Below, piece by piece: positions 8,844 to 31,741 of a stretch of DNA of 64,000 bases. The notes below the pieces were generated by a model. That model was given only the letters and a program-made list of their open reading frames with translations, made no database searches and had not been told where the DNA came from. The DNA is from Candidatus Kapaibacterium sp. (GTDB lineage Bacteria > Bacteroidota > Ignavibacteria > Kapaibacteriales > UBA2268). The position numbers and the translations under genes are program-made. Where the stretch lies: NCBI GenBank assembly GCA_026418625.1, contig JAOABA010000001.1:1-64000 (forward strand), in the 5' to 3' direction. The first letter of the stretch is position 1, and every line of letters begins with the position of its first letter.

Positions 8844-11453
8844 TTATTTAATCATTTCCTTAAATCTTGGGTCTTCTCTTAATTTAGATAAACGTATACT
8901 ATTAAAAATATCAACTTTTGGACCGTTAGCCAGAAAATATTTTCTTACAAATTCCAATGCTTTATTTCTATCACCACTTACTTCTTTGTTTACAGCTGCT
9001 TTTAAAAGAACAACTGGAGTTTCAGGAGATAAAGTTAAAGCTTTATTGATATACTCCTCACTTTTTTGTTTATTACCGAGAAAAATATAATAATTAGAAA
9101 GAGAAGCTAAAACGCTCGAATTGTTAGGATTGATTTTAATCATATCTTCAGCTAATTTAATAGCTTTTAATAAATTTTCCTGCTCCTTCTGTTTCATATT
9201 TGGTATATAATGATAAGCTTCTGCAAGATTGCCATAGTAAACAAAACTTGGTTTATCTAATTTTAAAGCTTTTTCGTATTCTTCGGCTGCTTCTTTTGGT
9301 TTATGCATTAGAAAATATGCAGCTGCTCTATTATTGTAAGTATCAGGATTTTTGTTATTAATTTTTAGAGCCTTATCAAGATATTCAAAAGCATCATTAA
9401 ATTTTCTTTGCATTATATAAATACCAGCAATATTGTTATACCCTCTATCATTGTCTTTTGTTAATTCGATTACCTTTTTGAACATTTCAATAGCCTTGTC
9501 GTATTGACCTCTAAAACGATAGAAAAAACCTAAGTTATTATACTTTGACCATTCAAGGCTATCATACATTATTGCTCTTTTGTAATTTTTTTCAGCTAAG
9601 TCAAATTGATTGGCATTTTCGTATGCAATAGCAATTTTTAACAAGGCTTTAGAATTAGAGGGATTTGCTTTTAATATTTTTGAATAGACCTCGATAGCTT
9701 TATTGAAGGCACCTATTTGAGAATAAGTGTTACCCATTGCCAATAATGTTTGATGGTAATCTGGGGCAAGTTCAACTGCTTTCTTAGAATTTAATTCTGC
9801 AAGATTAGCATCAGCTTTATCATAAGTTATATCATATTTATACCAATAAGCCTCGCTTAAACCAGCATAAGCAAGGGCATAAGTGTTATCATTTTTAATA
9901 GCTTCCTCGAATAAACTTATTGCTTGATTGATATTTTCAATTCTTTCATATCTTCCTAAATATGCTAATCCTTTAATATAAAGTTCATAAGCCTTTTCGC
10001 TGAATGTTGGAGGTGGTAGAATCTTTGTTTGTTTAGATGCAAGAGCATAATCAATGCCTAACATATTAGCAACAATTGTAAATGCACTATCCTGCAAAAG
10101 ACTCTTTCTGTTATCAGACTCTACAATAATTCTAGTCTTTTGTGTAATCATATCTTTATCATATAATCGTAAAGTCAGTTGGATTTCCTGACCTCTTCTC
10201 ATAAATGTGCCGGAAATGGCTATGTTTGCATTGAATTTCTCTCGTGCAGCAGAAATAGTTTTGATTTGATTTTCAAAAATTTCATTTGGAGATATAATTG
10301 AAAGGTATTTACCATAATTCTGAAATTGTGCAAGGTTATCAGCAAGATTATAAGTAAAACCTTTTGAAAATATTTCATCATCTTCCTTTGAATTAATAAA
10401 ATCAAATTTCAATATGGCAACTCGTTTGAATTCGTCACTTTCAATATCAACTCCTTTTGGTTCAAAACTGTTAGTAAAAAAATATAATAAAGTGAAAATA
10501 ATCAGAAAGACACCAAGAGAAATCAATAAAAGTTGAGATTTTGATAATTTACTTAAAAATCCTTTCTCTAATACTTTATCAATATACGATTTCTGCCTTA
10601 TGGGTTTATCATAGGTGGCTGTTTTAAGATAAGTCCCAGTGATATAATTATCTAAATCTTTTATGACATCCTCGCAGGTATGATACCTATTATCAGGATT
10701 TTTTTCAAGGCACTTTAGAACAATATTATCCAAGTATTCCGGAACATTTGGGTTTATGAAGCTTGGTTTGATTGGCTCTTCGTTAATAATGGAATAGATA
10801 ATGGCTTCTTCATAGTCACCCTTGAAAGGAACCTCCCCAGTTAAACATTCATAAAGAACAACTCCGGCGGACCATATGTCTGACCTGTTATCAACTTTTT
10901 TGCCTAAAGCTTGTTCAGGAGACATATAAGCAGCAGTTCCATATAATTCATCTAATTCATAAGCTGGAATTTCTCTTTCTAATCTTGATAAACCAAAATC
11001 AACTATTTTTAAACTTCCATCGGTATTTATCATTAGATTTGCCGGTTTAATATCCAAATGAAGAATGCCTTTTTTGTGAGCTGCGCTGAGACCAAGAAAG
11101 CACTGCTTTATATAATTAACGGAATCATCAATAGTCAACTCTGAATTTTTGATTAAATCTGACAGAGATTGACCGTCGTTCCATAACATAACAATATAAT
11201 AAAAGCCTTCTTCATTTTGGTCAATTTCGATTATTGTGCAGATATTCTGGTGGTCTAATTGGGAAGCCATATATGCTTCTTGCTTGAACCTATTAATAGC
11301 ATTATGATCATCTAATTTCTGACTAATTACTTTTATCGCAACATTTCTATTCAAATTCCTATCAATAGCTTTATAAACCTCCCCCATTCCACCTTCATTA
11401 ACTTTGGAGTCTATATAGTAATGTTTTAATACTTTGCCGCTTAAATCTTCCAT
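8844..11453 (-). CDS. transmembrane Ser/Thr protein kinase with TolB-like and TPR domains
   Basis: An 869-residue protein. The kinase domain spans about residues 10-270: glycine loop NEGGMGEV (19-26), VAIK with Lys41, catalytic loop LHLDIKPANL with Asp134, DFG at 152-154, and MSPEQ. The HRD motif reads HLD (non-RD), and the first loop glycine is Asn19. One membrane helix lies at about 308-326. Beyond it are a TolB/FlgO-like alpha-beta domain (about 342-465) and roughly ten TPR units to the C-terminus, presumably outside the cytoplasmic membrane. The architecture is common in the Ignavibacteria/Bacteroidota group. The gene heads a seven-gene minus-strand run. Substrates are unknown; the four small proteins encoded next are candidates (inference). 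Confidence 0.9.
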   Translation of the reverse strand: MEDLSGKVLKHYYIDSKVNEGGMGEVYKAIDRNLNRNVAIKVISQKLDDHNAINRFKQEAYMASQLDHQNICTIIEIDQNEEGFYYIVMLWNDGQSLSDLIKNSELTIDDSVNYIKQCFLGLSAAHKKGILHLDIKPANLMINTDGSLKIVDFGLSRLEREIPAYELDELYGTAAYMSPEQALGKKVDNRSDIWSAGVVLYECLTGEVPFKGDYEEAIIYSIINEEPIKPSFINPNVPEYLDNIVLKCLEKNPDNRYHTCEDVIKDLDNYITGTYLKTATYDKPIRQKSYIDKVLEKGFLSKLSKSQLLLISLGVFLIIFTLLYFFTNSFEPKGVDIESDEFKRVAILKFDFINSKEDDEIFSKGFTYNLADNLAQFQNYGKYLSIISPNEIFENQIKTISAAREKFNANIAISGTFMRRGQEIQLTLRLYDKDMITQKTRIIVESDNRKSLLQDSAFTIVANMLGIDYALASKQTKILPPPTFSEKAYELYIKGLAYLGRYERIENINQAISLFEEAIKNDNTYALAYAGLSEAYWYKYDITYDKADANLAELNSKKAVELAPDYHQTLLAMGNTYSQIGAFNKAIEVYSKILKANPSNSKALLKIAIAYENANQFDLAEKNYKRAIMYDSLEWSKYNNLGFFYRFRGQYDKAIEMFKKVIELTKDNDRGYNNIAGIYIMQRKFNDAFEYLDKALKINNKNPDTYNNRAAAYFLMHKPKEAAEEYEKALKLDKPSFVYYGNLAEAYHYIPNMKQKEQENLLKAIKLAEDMIKINPNNSSVLASLSNYYIFLGNKQKSEEYINKALTLSPETPVVLLKAAVNKEVSGDRNKALEFVRKYFLANGPKVDIFNSIRLSKLREDPRFKEMIK

Positions 11454-23343: not shown

Positions 23344-25359
23344 ATGACAAGGTTTGAGGCTGAAGAAATTTTAAAGAAAACTTTCAAGTTATCAAAATTC
23401 TACGATGACCAATGGACTACTATTAAATATATTTTAGAGGGTCGGAAGGTTCTGCTTATTCAAAGAACTGGATTTGGTAAATCACTTTGTTTTCAATTTC
23501 CAGCAACAATTTTTAAAGGAATGACTGTCATTTTTTCTCCTCTGATTGCATTAATGAGAGACCAAGTTAAAAAATTGAATGACCTCGGTATTAAAGCAAG
23601 ATGTATCAATAGCGAACAAACTCTTGAAGAAAACTCCAAAATTATTAATGAAGCAAAATTGGGTAAAGTTAAAATTTTATATATTGCACCAGAAAGACAA
23701 GAAAATATTGAATGGATTGAAGCAGTTCGGGAAATGAATTTATCGATGATTGTTGTTGATGAGGCACACTGTATATCCCTTTGGGGACATGACTTTAGAC
23801 CAGCGTTTAAACGAATTGTAGATCTTGTAAATCTCTTACCAAAAGGATTTCCGGTTCTTGCAACAACTGCAACTGCAACAAAAAGAGTTGAAAATGATAT
23901 AGCCAAACAAATTGGCTACGACACGATTACAATTAGGGGAAATTTGATAAGGGACAATTTAAAATTGTATGTAATACAAGTTTCTTCTGAAGATGAAAAA
24001 TTAATTTGGTTAGGCAAAAACCTAAATAAACTTCCGGGCTCTGGAATTATATATACTGGGACCAGAGTTAATACCTTAATTTATTCCAACTGGTTAGAAT
24101 ATTTAAAAATCTCTTCTACTTCTTATAATGCTGCTTTAGATCCTGAATCAAGAGTTGCAATCGAAAATGGCTTTATGGTTAATCAGTGGAAATGTATTGT
24201 TTCAACTAATGCTTTAGGTATGGGTATTGACAAACCTGATATAAGATTTATCATTCATACTCAAATTCCGCAATCTCCAATTCATTATTACCAAGAAATT
24301 GGTAGGGCCGGAAGGGATGGAGAAACTTCCTATATTATTTTGTTCTACAATAAAGAAGATAGAAAATTACCTGAGGCTTTTATTGAAAGCAGTAGACCGG
24401 AGATGTCAATATACGATAAAGTAATAAATGTTGTAAAAAACGAATTATTAAGTGAAAGAGAACTGATGAAGCAAACCAACCTAAAACAGACACAAGTAAG
24501 GGTTATAAAAGCTGATTTAATAGAACAAGGAATTATTCGTGAATTAAATTTTGGAGGAAGTAAAAAATATGAATTCATTACTAATGCTAAAAAAATAGAT
24601 ACAAAAAAATTCGTTGATCTTAGAAATCATAAATTGAAAGAACTTGAAGATATGATTGCATATGTTGAAACAGATAAATCAAGAATGAAATTCCTTTGCG
24701 AATATTTAGGCGACACCATAAAAAGTAATATTTCAAATTGTGATAATACCAGTGAAAATAAAATTAAAATTTCTGTTACTCCCGAATGGATTGAAAAACT
24801 TCAAAATTTCAGGGAAGAATATCTTCCAATATTAGAAGTAGAAACTAAAGGATCAAATCTTATTAATGGTATAGCCGCTTCTTACTATGGAACTTCATCG
24901 GTTGGATCTGCTATACATCGTTCTAAATATGAAAATGGAGGAGATTTTCCCGATTTTTTATTAAAGTTATTTATTAAAGCTTTTAGAAAAAAATTTGGAA
25001 ACGAAACATTTCATTATATTTTATACGTCCCTCCAACAAAATCAGGGGACTTAGTTAAAAATTTTGCAATCAAAGTATCTAAAATTCTGAAAATTCCGAT
25101 CTCACATAAATTAGTCAAAACTAGACATACTATTGAGCAAAAGGTTTTTGAAAATTCCTTATTAAAAACAGAAAATGTTAAAAACGCATTTGTATATTTA
25201 GAACCAAATGAAATAAAAGGAAAAACAATTTTAATAATTGATGACATATTTGACAGTGGAGCAACTATGAAGGAAATTGGTAGATATTTAACAACCTTAG
25301 GAGTTTTAAAAATTGTTCCTATGGCTATTGCAAAAACTGTTGGTGGAGATATTGTTTAA
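23344..25359 (+). CDS. RecQ-family helicase fused to a ComF-like phosphoribosyltransferase domain
   Basis: A 671-residue fusion. Residues 1-340 are a superfamily 2 helicase of RecQ type: TGFGKS (42-47), DEAH (139-142) in VVDEAHCISLWGHDFRPAF, TTATAT (174-179), and motif VI QEIGRAGRDG (317-326). A winged-helix-like region follows (about 355-415). The RecQ zinc site is degenerate: only Cys452 and Cys466 remain where four cysteines are expected. Residues about 480-671 form a phosphoribosyltransferase domain with the PRPP loop IIDDIFDSGAT (631-641), preceded by a ComFC-like TRHTIEQ...NVKNAF block. No HRDC domain is seen. The DprA-like gene starts four bases after the stop. A role in single-strand DNA handling, uptake or defence is inferred, not shown. 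Confidence 0.88.
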   Translation: MTRFEAEEILKKTFKLSKFYDDQWTTIKYILEGRKVLLIQRTGFGKSLCFQFPATIFKGMTVIFSPLIALMRDQVKKLNDLGIKARCINSEQTLEENSKIINEAKLGKVKILYIAPERQENIEWIEAVREMNLSMIVVDEAHCISLWGHDFRPAFKRIVDLVNLLPKGFPVLATTATATKRVENDIAKQIGYDTITIRGNLIRDNLKLYVIQVSSEDEKLIWLGKNLNKLPGSGIIYTGTRVNTLIYSNWLEYLKISSTSYNAALDPESRVAIENGFMVNQWKCIVSTNALGMGIDKPDIRFIIHTQIPQSPIHYYQEIGRAGRDGETSYIILFYNKEDRKLPEAFIESSRPEMSIYDKVINVVKNELLSERELMKQTNLKQTQVRVIKADLIEQGIIRELNFGGSKKYEFITNAKKIDTKKFVDLRNHKLKELEDMIAYVETDKSRMKFLCEYLGDTIKSNISNCDNTSENKIKISVTPEWIEKLQNFREEYLPILEVETKGSNLINGIAASYYGTSSVGSAIHRSKYENGGDFPDFLLKLFIKAFRKKFGNETFHYILYVPPTKSGDLVKNFAIKVSKILKIPISHKLVKTRHTIEQKVFENSLLKTENVKNAFVYLEPNEIKGKTILIIDDIFDSGATMKEIGRYLTTLGVLKIVPMAIAKTVGGDIV

Positions 25360-25363
25360 TAAA

Positions 25364-26521
25364 ATGATGAAAGAAACAGCATATTGGATAAGTTTAGCCC
25401 ATATACCAAAATGGGGATATAAAAAAATCAATAGTCTCATTGTTAAGTTTTTTCATGATTTTCAAATCCCTATTGACGAATTTTTTCATTTGGATGAAAC
25501 AGATTGGAAAAATAAATTCCATTTAGAGGATAAAGATATAAATGATTTGAAAAAAGCAAAATCTGAAGTAGCTAGTAATTCTTTTCTTGCTGAATCATTG
25601 CTTAACCAAGGTTATGAAATTTTACCCATTATTTCCTCTGACTATTCAAAAACATTAAAAGAAAACTTAAAAACATCTAATTCGCCACCTATTCTCTATT
25701 TAAAAGGAAATAAAAACATTTTAGGAGAAAATTCCGTTGCTATTGTAGGCTCTCGAAATGCCTCTAAAAAAGCTTTAGATTTTGCAGACAACATAGCCAA
25801 ATTGGCAAGTAATAAATTTAAAGTTGTTGTTAGTGGCTTTGCTAAAGGTGTAGACAAACAGGCATTGGATTCAGCCATTAAATACAAAGGTCAAAGTATA
25901 ATTGTTTTACCACAAGGTATTTTGACATTTGATTCTGGCTTTAAAAAATACTATAAGCAAATAATAGATGGCGACATCTTAGTTCTGAGCACTTTTTTCC
26001 CTAAAGCCCCTTGGAAAGCAGAATTGGCTATGGCTCGAAATCCAATCATTTATGGGCTTGCTAAAGAAATTTTTGTTGCTGAGTCATCCGATAAAGGTGG
26101 AACCTGGTCTGGAGTTATTGACGGTCTAAGAAAAGGTAGGAAGATTTATGTTCTTAAACCTGAAATTGATGATAATAATGCTAACAATTTATTAATACAA
26201 AAGGGTGCCATTCCTGTGGACTTTGAGGGTAATGAATTATATAAAGAATACGATATAGTCGAGAATCATCTTTTAGTATCTGCAGAAGAACAAGTTGAAA
26301 CTTACGATTTAGAAAAAAAAATCCATGAAATTCTCACAGTAAAACCAATGACTGCCACAGAAATTCTTGCTAAACTGGATATCGATTGGAAAATAAAAAA
26401 AATGAATAATTATCTAAAAAAATTAAATTTCATTCAATTCGAAAAAAGCGGTCGAAGAAATATATATAAGCTCAGAGAATCAATTGAAAGATTTCAACAT
26501 AAACTATTTGATAACAGTTAA
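25364..26521 (+). CDS. divergent DprA/SLOG-family DNA-processing protein
   Basis: A 385-residue DprA-like protein starting at the ATG at 25364, or the adjacent ATG at 25367; an in-frame TTG-type start inside the helicase gene is unlikely. The N-terminus has helical-hairpin character. The Rossmann core shows VAIVGSRNAS (125-134), VVVSGFAKGVDKQALDSA (154-171), STFFPKAPWKAELAMARNPIIYGLA (209-233, key residues S209, R225, N226) and KGGTWSG (244-250). The last stands where competence DprA usually has SGSLIT. A winged helix closes the chain (about 315-370). Family DprA binds single-stranded DNA and loads RecA. The pairing with the RecQ-PRTase and the altered motif suggest a specialised version. Confidence 0.85.
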   Translation: MMKETAYWISLAHIPKWGYKKINSLIVKFFHDFQIPIDEFFHLDETDWKNKFHLEDKDINDLKKAKSEVASNSFLAESLLNQGYEILPIISSDYSKTLKENLKTSNSPPILYLKGNKNILGENSVAIVGSRNASKKALDFADNIAKLASNKFKVVVSGFAKGVDKQALDSAIKYKGQSIIVLPQGILTFDSGFKKYYKQIIDGDILVLSTFFPKAPWKAELAMARNPIIYGLAKEIFVAESSDKGGTWSGVIDGLRKGRKIYVLKPEIDDNNANNLLIQKGAIPVDFEGNELYKEYDIVENHLLVSAEEQVETYDLEKKIHEILTVKPMTATEILAKLDIDWKIKKMNNYLKKLNFIQFEKSGRRNIYKLRESIERFQHKLFDNS

Positions 26522-29331: not shown

Positions 29332-30549
29332 TTAAAAAATTTTTTTTGCTTGGTTATAAATATAAAGGAAAAAAGGTTTGATGGAATCTACATAAGCTTC
29401 GAAAATAAAGACTGTAGCAGCAATGGCTATCAAAGATAAAGTTAATTTTAAATCGAAATTAAAGCTGAAATAAAAGTAATATGTCAATAAGATAATTAAA
29501 GTTGATTGAATCAAAAAAGCAAAAATACTAACCAGTTCATATAATTCCTTCTTGTATTCAGTTACTTTCAAAAATAATATAAAATTAAAATAGGTAATTA
29601 AAAAAGCAATCAATATAATAAACAGACCGGGCATAATGTTATAAAAAGAACCTTGATTGAACATATTGATAATATTAGCTATGATAATTACTTTAAACAT
29701 ATCTGGAAATGTTCTCCCTGCATAGTTTTTGTTCAAAGGGGTAAAATATAGATCATCAAGTTCTTTTTCACTGTCGAACACTGGGCAATTTCCAATCAAA
29801 ATAATTTTATTTGTAAATCTATTTACTGGCTCTTCATCATATAATAATTCTTTTCCTCTATAAAAAAAGAATTTATTAAAATTCCCTATGAAATTAATAA
29901 CTTCTTTATCAGTTTTATCTGTATATCTTTTGTCTAAGTGTTTTGAACCGAATAAAAAAGAAATTTTATAAGCTAATGAATGTATTATTCCGCTATCAGC
30001 TTTTATTATTGGAAAAAATTCCCTTTGTGTATAGAATCTTTTGTCTTTTTGAAAATCAAGGTCAATATAACCAAGAATATCTCGATGCCTATTATAAAAA
30101 TTATATCGAATTGAGTCATAAATATTCAAATAATCCTGCTTTTCCAAATCGAAAAGTCTATATCCAATCACAAATTTATTTTTTAATTCTGATATGAGAC
30201 TATCTAATTTGGTCATTGACTCAGGACTAATTTCATCGAAATGTAACTCTTCAAGTGCTATAACTTTAGGATTGAAAACATTGAGCTTAGCTATCAAATC
30301 TAAGGTTTCGTCAAATTCTAACTTACTATTATCAATTAAGATAATGTTAGTATCTGGTTTAATATTATCTTCATCTCGAAAATAAGTATTTACATCAGTA
30401 ATTGCAAAATCTTCGAAAACTCTCTTTAATGGTGTGAAAATATCTGCTGAGAAAATTAAAGAAAAAATAAAAATCGTTAAAAAAACAAAAATTGTCCCAA
30501 AAAAAGCATCAACATTAAATAATTTTTTATATTTATTTTTTCTTGCCAT
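29332..30549 (-). CDS. CHASE2-domain membrane protein without output domain (second copy)
   Basis: A 405-residue protein: an N-terminal membrane helix (FGTIFVFLTIFIFSLIFSA), an extracytoplasmic CHASE2 sensory domain (about 55-285, with PDTNIILIDNSKLEF and the later FTNKIILIGN), and three C-terminal helices (about 300-395). The usual cyclase, kinase or phosphatase output domain is missing; only a few residues follow the last helix. The start overlaps the preceding CHASE2 gene by 17 bases. The two are similar in layout (405 and 402 residues) and are probably paralogues. Signal output must rely on another protein; the response regulator and FecR protein encoded downstream are candidates. Confidence 0.8.
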   Translation of the reverse strand: MARKNKYKKLFNVDAFFGTIFVFLTIFIFSLIFSADIFTPLKRVFEDFAITDVNTYFRDEDNIKPDTNIILIDNSKLEFDETLDLIAKLNVFNPKVIALEELHFDEISPESMTKLDSLISELKNKFVIGYRLFDLEKQDYLNIYDSIRYNFYNRHRDILGYIDLDFQKDKRFYTQREFFPIIKADSGIIHSLAYKISFLFGSKHLDKRYTDKTDKEVINFIGNFNKFFFYRGKELLYDEEPVNRFTNKIILIGNCPVFDSEKELDDLYFTPLNKNYAGRTFPDMFKVIIIANIINMFNQGSFYNIMPGLFIILIAFLITYFNFILFLKVTEYKKELYELVSIFAFLIQSTLIILLTYYFYFSFNFDLKLTLSLIAIAATVFIFEAYVDSIKPFFLYIYNQAKKIF

Positions 30550-31741
30550 CTTTTTTTAATTTATTTATTAATCCCTCGAGTAATGGTTTAATAGAATCAA
30601 AATAGGCTTCATAGCAAGGAATAATTATCAAAAATACAAATACCGATATCATCAAGTTCAAATCAACTCTGAATAAATAAATTGAATTTAGATTTAGAAA
30701 AATAAAAAGAAAAATTGAAGCAAAAACAGTTAAAATGCTAATCGGCTCATAAAAACGACTTGTAAATTCTGACTTGGTTCTTAAATAAGTGAAAAAATTA
30801 AAAACTAAAAATACATAAACAAATATAATAATGGCAGCAATATATAAATCAAACTTGTAGTAAAAGCTTTCGTCAAGTATCATAGAAATCACATTAGCGT
30901 GAACAACTATACCATACATATCAGGCAAAGATTTGCCAATGTATTGTTCATTCATAGGAGTGAAGAAAATATCATCGGTAGTTAGTGTATGAAAATTTGG
31001 TCCCATATAACCCATTAAAACAATTTTATCCCTTATAAAACCGAGGCTATCCTGCCTTTGAAAAATTTCATCTGCATCTATATGATAATACTTATTGAAA
31101 TTTCGCCTGAAATTAATTATCTCAATTTCGTTATTTCTATCTAATAATTTTTTTGTCTTTTCTGGATTAAATACTGAGGCTATAACACAAGAAAAATTAA
31201 TTTCTGTTTTGTTTCCGACCTGTTGTTTGGGAGTGAAAGTTCTTGTTGTTCTTGAACTTGTATCTTTATCCATTATAAAATTAACAAAACCGGTTCGATG
31301 ATTTTGTTTAAATTCAGGGTGACAATATTCAATAGTGTCATACTGATCATTTTCAGAATTCCAAATTAATTTACTAACAAGAACTGCATTTTTAGTTTTT
31401 TGTAAAACTGCTTTCAAGGTGCTATCATTGAAGGGATTGTTTAGTTTTCTGAAAAACACATCAATACCAACAACTTTTGGTTCATACCTATTAATTATTT
31501 CTAATTGTTTAGCAATGCCATACCTTGTTAATCTACCAATGTTTACAAGAACAATGTTGGTATCAACTTGAATATCATCCTTTTTTATCATTTTCGAAAA
31601 CACAATGTCAGATAAATTCAAATCCTGTATTGTATTTTCAATTGGATCTAAAAAGTTTAGATTTAAAATTATTGGAAAGAAACGGATAATTATGAAAACA
31701 AATCCTGTAGCAATTAAGTTATGTAGGATTTTAAATTTCAT
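30533..31741 (-). CDS. CHASE2-domain membrane protein without output domain (first copy)
   Basis: A 402-residue protein with an N-terminal helix (LIATGFVFIIIRFFPIIL), a CHASE2 domain (about 40-275, with VDTNIVLVNIGRLTRYG, EPKVVGIDVFF and IRDKIVLMGYMGPN), and three membrane helices at the C-terminus, followed by a short Lys-rich end. There is no enzymatic output domain. It is paired with an overlapping paralogue directly downstream. The exonuclease III gene upstream ends 27 bases before this start. The ligand is unknown; CHASE2 is described only as an extracellular sensory domain. Confidence 0.8.
   Translation of the reverse strand: MKFKILHNLIATGFVFIIIRFFPIILNLNFLDPIENTIQDLNLSDIVFSKMIKKDDIQVDTNIVLVNIGRLTRYGIAKQLEIINRYEPKVVGIDVFFRKLNNPFNDSTLKAVLQKTKNAVLVSKLIWNSENDQYDTIEYCHPEFKQNHRTGFVNFIMDKDTSSRTTRTFTPKQQVGNKTEINFSCVIASVFNPEKTKKLLDRNNEIEIINFRRNFNKYYHIDADEIFQRQDSLGFIRDKIVLMGYMGPNFHTLTTDDIFFTPMNEQYIGKSLPDMYGIVVHANVISMILDESFYYKFDLYIAAIIIFVYVFLVFNFFTYLRTKSEFTSRFYEPISILTVFASIFLFIFLNLNSIYLFRVDLNLMISVFVFLIIIPCYEAYFDSIKPLLEGLINKLKKDGKKK

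Follow-up and report, generated by a model that had tools for sequence, protein, structure and literature searches.

The locus described here occupies positions 23,344 to 26,521 of the window, by which we mean the whole 64,000-nucleotide stretch of a Candidatus Kapaibacterium sp. contig that was analysed. It holds two genes in the same orientation, with the following features:

23344..25359, + strand: psyrT/rqlH, a RecQ-like SF2 helicase, linker and ComF-like phosphoribosyltransferase (PRTase), 671 aa (PADLOC, Pfam, AlphaFold)
23479..23481, + strand: Walker A lysine K46, a lysine wherever the position is filled (83 tree members)
23758..23769, + strand: DEAH box D139-H142, with D139 and E140 invariant (84/84)
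24682..24759, + strand: degenerate RecQ zinc-binding site (SRMKFLC...NCDNTSEN), from alignment with relatives keeping Cys4 or CCCD
25240..25266, + strand: PRPP-binding loop DDIFDSGAT, residues 633-641, with D633/D634 kept in 83 of 84 members
25364..26521, + strand: psyrA/rqlI, a DprA/SLOG-like partner, 385 aa (PADLOC, DNA_processg_A, AlphaFold)

The original prediction, made from the nucleotide letters, had proposed that the first gene joins a RecQ-type helicase to a ComF-like PRTase with an intact PRPP loop at residues 631-641, and both elements are confirmed. Within one uninterrupted frame, the helicase spans residues ~5-360, the linker with the degenerate zinc site ~447-475 and the PRTase ~478-665. 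Pfam recovers DEAD (PF00270; 1.3e-26), Helicase_C (1.6e-19) and, at residues 577-657, Pribosyltran (PF00156; 5.3e-8), and the NCBIfam models for comF (TIGR00201; 3.5e-9) and the recQ family (TIGR00614; 338.9 bits) agree. The loop reads IDDIFDSGAT, and D633, D634, D637, S638 and T641 are all present. The protein is not a canonical RecQ, however, scoring 372 bits against the 640-bit cut-off of TIGR01389 and having lost most of its zinc ligands; relatives carry four cysteines or three cysteines and an aspartate, whereas no more than one or two of the four ligands survive in the window protein and its closest relatives, and RecQ_Zn_bind is marginal (25.7 bits against a cut-off of 25). The AlphaFold single-chain model (pLDDT 87.6) best matches the RecQ core of E. 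coli and Cronobacter (1oyw/4tmu); the 50 structural matches listed are all RecQ-type helicases, with no PRTase among them.

The second gene follows at a spacing typical of an operon, its ATG at 25364 coming exactly four bases after the psyrT stop codon, which ends at 25359; its frame is likewise uninterrupted, and a promoter and terminator scan returned signals no more frequent than chance. PsyrA combines an N-terminal helical domain, a Rossmann (SLOG) domain and a C-terminal winged helix, matches Pfam DNA_processg_A at 1.4e-40, and yields a single-chain model (pLDDT 88.7) resembling Streptococcus DprA (3uqz) and E. coli ShosA (8zva). The prediction's description of a 'divergent DprA' located four bases downstream is thus accurate: the protein reaches only 112.1 bits against the TIGR00732 cut-off of 191.15, shares 23% identity over 209 aligned residues with the genome's own DprA, and carries RNP and GGTW in place of the DprA motifs RNR and GGA. 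Judged from open-frame lengths, the winged helix is absent from 5 of 15 close PsyrA proteins, which end at ~311-325 residues. This fits the report that the helix-turn-helix of E. coli RqlI is not required to restrain RqlH.

Taken as a pair, the two genes (23344-25359 and 25364-26521) are probably a PsyrTA (RqlHI) toxin-antitoxin system. The PADLOC PsyrT model matches the first gene at 867.5 bits over residues 4-669 of 671, the PsyrA model matches the second at 259.6 bits, and the next-ranked families, DpdF and ShosA respectively, score far lower. The toxin gene comes first, fusing a RecQ-like helicase to a C-terminal PRTase, with the DprA-like gene directly downstream, and the expected motif residues (K46, D139, E140, D633, D634, D637, S638 and T641) are all in place. 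This architecture has already been described as RqlH-RqlI in E. coli and PsyrT-PsyrA in Pseudomonas syringae, and is catalogued as 'PsyrTA'. The pair of extraintestinal E. coli F11 (PMC4670107) shares its domain order, gene order and winged-helix DprA-like partner with the window pair, and the RqlH residues K49, D148 and D663, mutated in the E. coli work, have counterparts in K46, D139 and D637, a correspondence drawn from motifs and not from the aligned F11 sequence. It differs in that the zinc site is degenerate in the window protein, and family homology was traced at ~30% identity through Pseudomonas, Providencia and other members. The PADLOC PsyrTA profiles match both genes nearly end to end, although identity to the gammaproteobacterial members compared is again only ~30% and the window clade is a distinct one, with members in Bacteroidota, Ignavibacteriota and a handful of other phyla. 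ShosT-ShosA also pairs a PRTase toxin with a DprA-like antitoxin, and ShosA (8zva) is among the structural matches of PsyrA. Membership of that family was rejected, as ShosT has no helicase domain and its profile matches the window toxin only at residues 457-666 (33.6 bits), within the C-terminal part.

The same three fold types occur in the competence proteins ComFA, ComFC and DprA, and the original prediction had suggested that the pair rebuilds this trio around a RecQ motor. The parallel is a fair one, already drawn in 2017 (PMC5512222), and it is the basis for supposing that the fused helicase-PRTase and its DprA-like partner act on single-stranded DNA taken up in natural transformation. 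We regard such a role as highly improbable. The window helicase is of RecQ type and fused to the PRTase, and the genome also encodes a dprA (C47; 241.8 bits), a comF-like gene at C42, which at 101.9 bits falls short of the TIGR00201 cut-off as most controls do, and a separate RecQ-type ORF of 728 residues (C4:14063-15205); because these copies lie elsewhere, the pair replaces no recQ, dprA or comF, contrary to one form of the proposal. Moreover, PsyrA departs from DprA at RNR and GGA, the scanned window flanks contain no competence genes next to the pair, and transformation went undetected in the E. coli RqlHI strains studied by Russell and Mulvey. The window adds another genome to a known toxin-antitoxin type and does not reveal new machinery for DNA uptake.

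In the family, 10 of 54 genomes encode a full-length PsyrT, with E-values of 8e-252 or better against a RecQ background of 4e-115 or weaker; across a sample of the phylum, 32 of 396 genomes pass 1e-150, fragments counted. The pair was not found in G004, the only genome of the same genus that was compared. There, the DNA match stops at ~23255, the end of glf, and restarts at ~32229, leaving ~9 kb that includes the pair unmatched apart from short conserved bits; the G004 contigs end on both sides of this gap, so that no exact empty site is defined. A quick PsyrT tree, built without bootstrap, mixes families: a member of f1 (G043) groups with one of f12 (G411), and one of f17 (G200) falls among the f1 sequences. 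Beyond the class, the broader PsyrT clade includes Chloroflexota, Deinococcota and Armatimonadota, and a contig of a methanogen lineage holds an incomplete PsyrT copy, 56% identical, that may reflect contamination of the metagenome-assembled genome. Patchy presence and the family-mixing tree suggest horizontal spread. Carriage of the window subfamily by phages or plasmids was considered and set aside, with only weak matches found on four plasmids (<33% identity) and in four unannotated phage-labelled records (<40% identity). Among the observations that, according to the original prediction, would together count against it were ordinary comF and dprA genes elsewhere, which the genome does have, and a pair fixed and vertically inherited among relatives, which is not what the survey returned.

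Pairing of the two genes is strict within the class, where a DprA-like gene adjoins psyrT on the same strand in 16 of 16 complete loci. Most Actinomycetota homologues, by comparison, have no DprA-like gene, in agreement with a published survey; many of these bacteria thus encode an unaccompanied toxin homologue, and an antitoxin is not required in every case. Some loci deviate in architecture. In one (L125:8006-10100), the PsyrT homologue has not one but two weak DprA-like genes in tandem behind it, with frames of 384 and 310 aa. In another, from a genome of the same phylum (L168:2537-6073; G341:C86:48188-51724), PsyrT is fused at its N terminus to exonuclease I (SbcB-like RNase_T and Exonuc_X-T_C) in a continuous frame of 1181 residues. 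Of 16 family genomes, none besides this one has the fusion, and in G446 an exonuclease I gene lies 4.7 kb away; the fused frame may stem from a recent deletion that joined the two genes or from an error in assembly.

These distributions bear on whether the pair serves DNA repair, with helicase and PsyrA acting together on damaged DNA and toxicity appearing only when the partner is missing. The clear RecQ fold is compatible with such a function, the solo homologues of Actinomycetota suggest that a non-toxic role is possible, and Russell and Mulvey lean towards a cooperative DNA function that benefits the cell. Patchy presence and a discordant tree are nevertheless ill-suited to core repair, and E. 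coli loses no fitness when rqlH and rqlI are both deleted (Russell and Mulvey), which leaves a repair accessory an unlikely reading.

The original prediction also proposed to see whether the pair sits in variable islands near defence genes; it lies beside such genes in some relatives but not in the window. In two relatives (G053 and G050; loci L031:10659-12641 and L033:3346-5316), genes for a type II restriction enzyme and a methyltransferase lie directly upstream in the same direction, in an operon-like arrangement; the G053 genes were scanned individually, and those of G050 were assigned from matching lengths and a tally of two. G014 has a type I methyltransferase close to the pair. The window neighbours encode a GH57 enzyme, a flippase, glf, an efflux adaptor, a response regulator and CHASE2 proteins, and a defence island is unsupported among these polysaccharide, efflux and signalling genes. 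PADLOC searches of 47 neighbouring ORFs gave, past 1e-15, only matches led by kinase-type models. The window also encodes a Ser/Thr protein kinase with TPR repeats (8844-11453, - strand), probably the source of the generic kinase-model matches PD-T4-6 and mad6, and two tandem CHASE2-domain membrane proteins with no obvious output domain (29332-31741, - strand). With its patchy distribution, apparent horizontal spread and restriction-modification neighbours in some relatives, the conflict or defence role that had been proposed is plausible.

Defence catalogues list PsyrTA among anti-phage systems, and a related DprA-PRTase pair blocks phages T7 and lambda. A single test of native E. coli PsyrTA gave no detectable phage protection (PMC12409345), and for the helicase-bearing pair a role against phage is not settled in the literature examined. 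A toxin with its antitoxin, patchy and horizontally spread, could alternatively be a selfish locus that stabilises itself at no benefit to the host; we consider this distinctly unlikely, given the phage protection afforded by the related pair and the position directly beside restriction-modification genes in two relatives.

For the toxin-antitoxin reading, the mechanism can be sketched from E. coli RqlHI and ShosTA. RqlH alone induces SOS, filamentation and loss of viability in E. coli, requiring its PRTase domain and D663, and RqlI physically contacts RqlH and relieves its toxicity (PMC4670107); by analogy, the window PsyrT would be toxic and PsyrA would rescue the cell. According to a review, a secondary source here, ShosT acts as a PRTase and pyrophosphatase disturbing purine metabolism, and ShosA binds DNA. 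Most likely, then, the PRTase domain would be the effector, held in check through direct contact with the helicase and with PsyrA, both of which probably watch single-stranded DNA. Phage replication, or DNA stress of another kind, would upset this balance in an infected cell and release the PRTase, which would then cause DNA damage or nucleotide-pool stress, so that infected cells would stop growing or die. For this organism, trigger, product and defence role are extrapolated; the parts, their pairing and their spread are observed. A ribosylated nucleotide has been proposed as a signal or DNA mark. In a more specific variant, confined to the zinc-decayed clade, the helicase would have ceased to be mainly a repair motor and would serve as a DNA sensor gating the PRTase, which would make a ribosylated nucleotide or a DNA adduct for the SLOG domain of PsyrA to read or remove; we hold this to be very unlikely.

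The window pair opens no new kind of system. With it, the toxin-antitoxin family gains a well-defined clade whose members come from Bacteroidota, Ignavibacteriota and some further phyla. Within this clade, the zinc site is kept, partly kept or lost, and the antitoxin occurs with or without its winged helix; such natural variation could help to tell the essential parts of the system from the dispensable ones.
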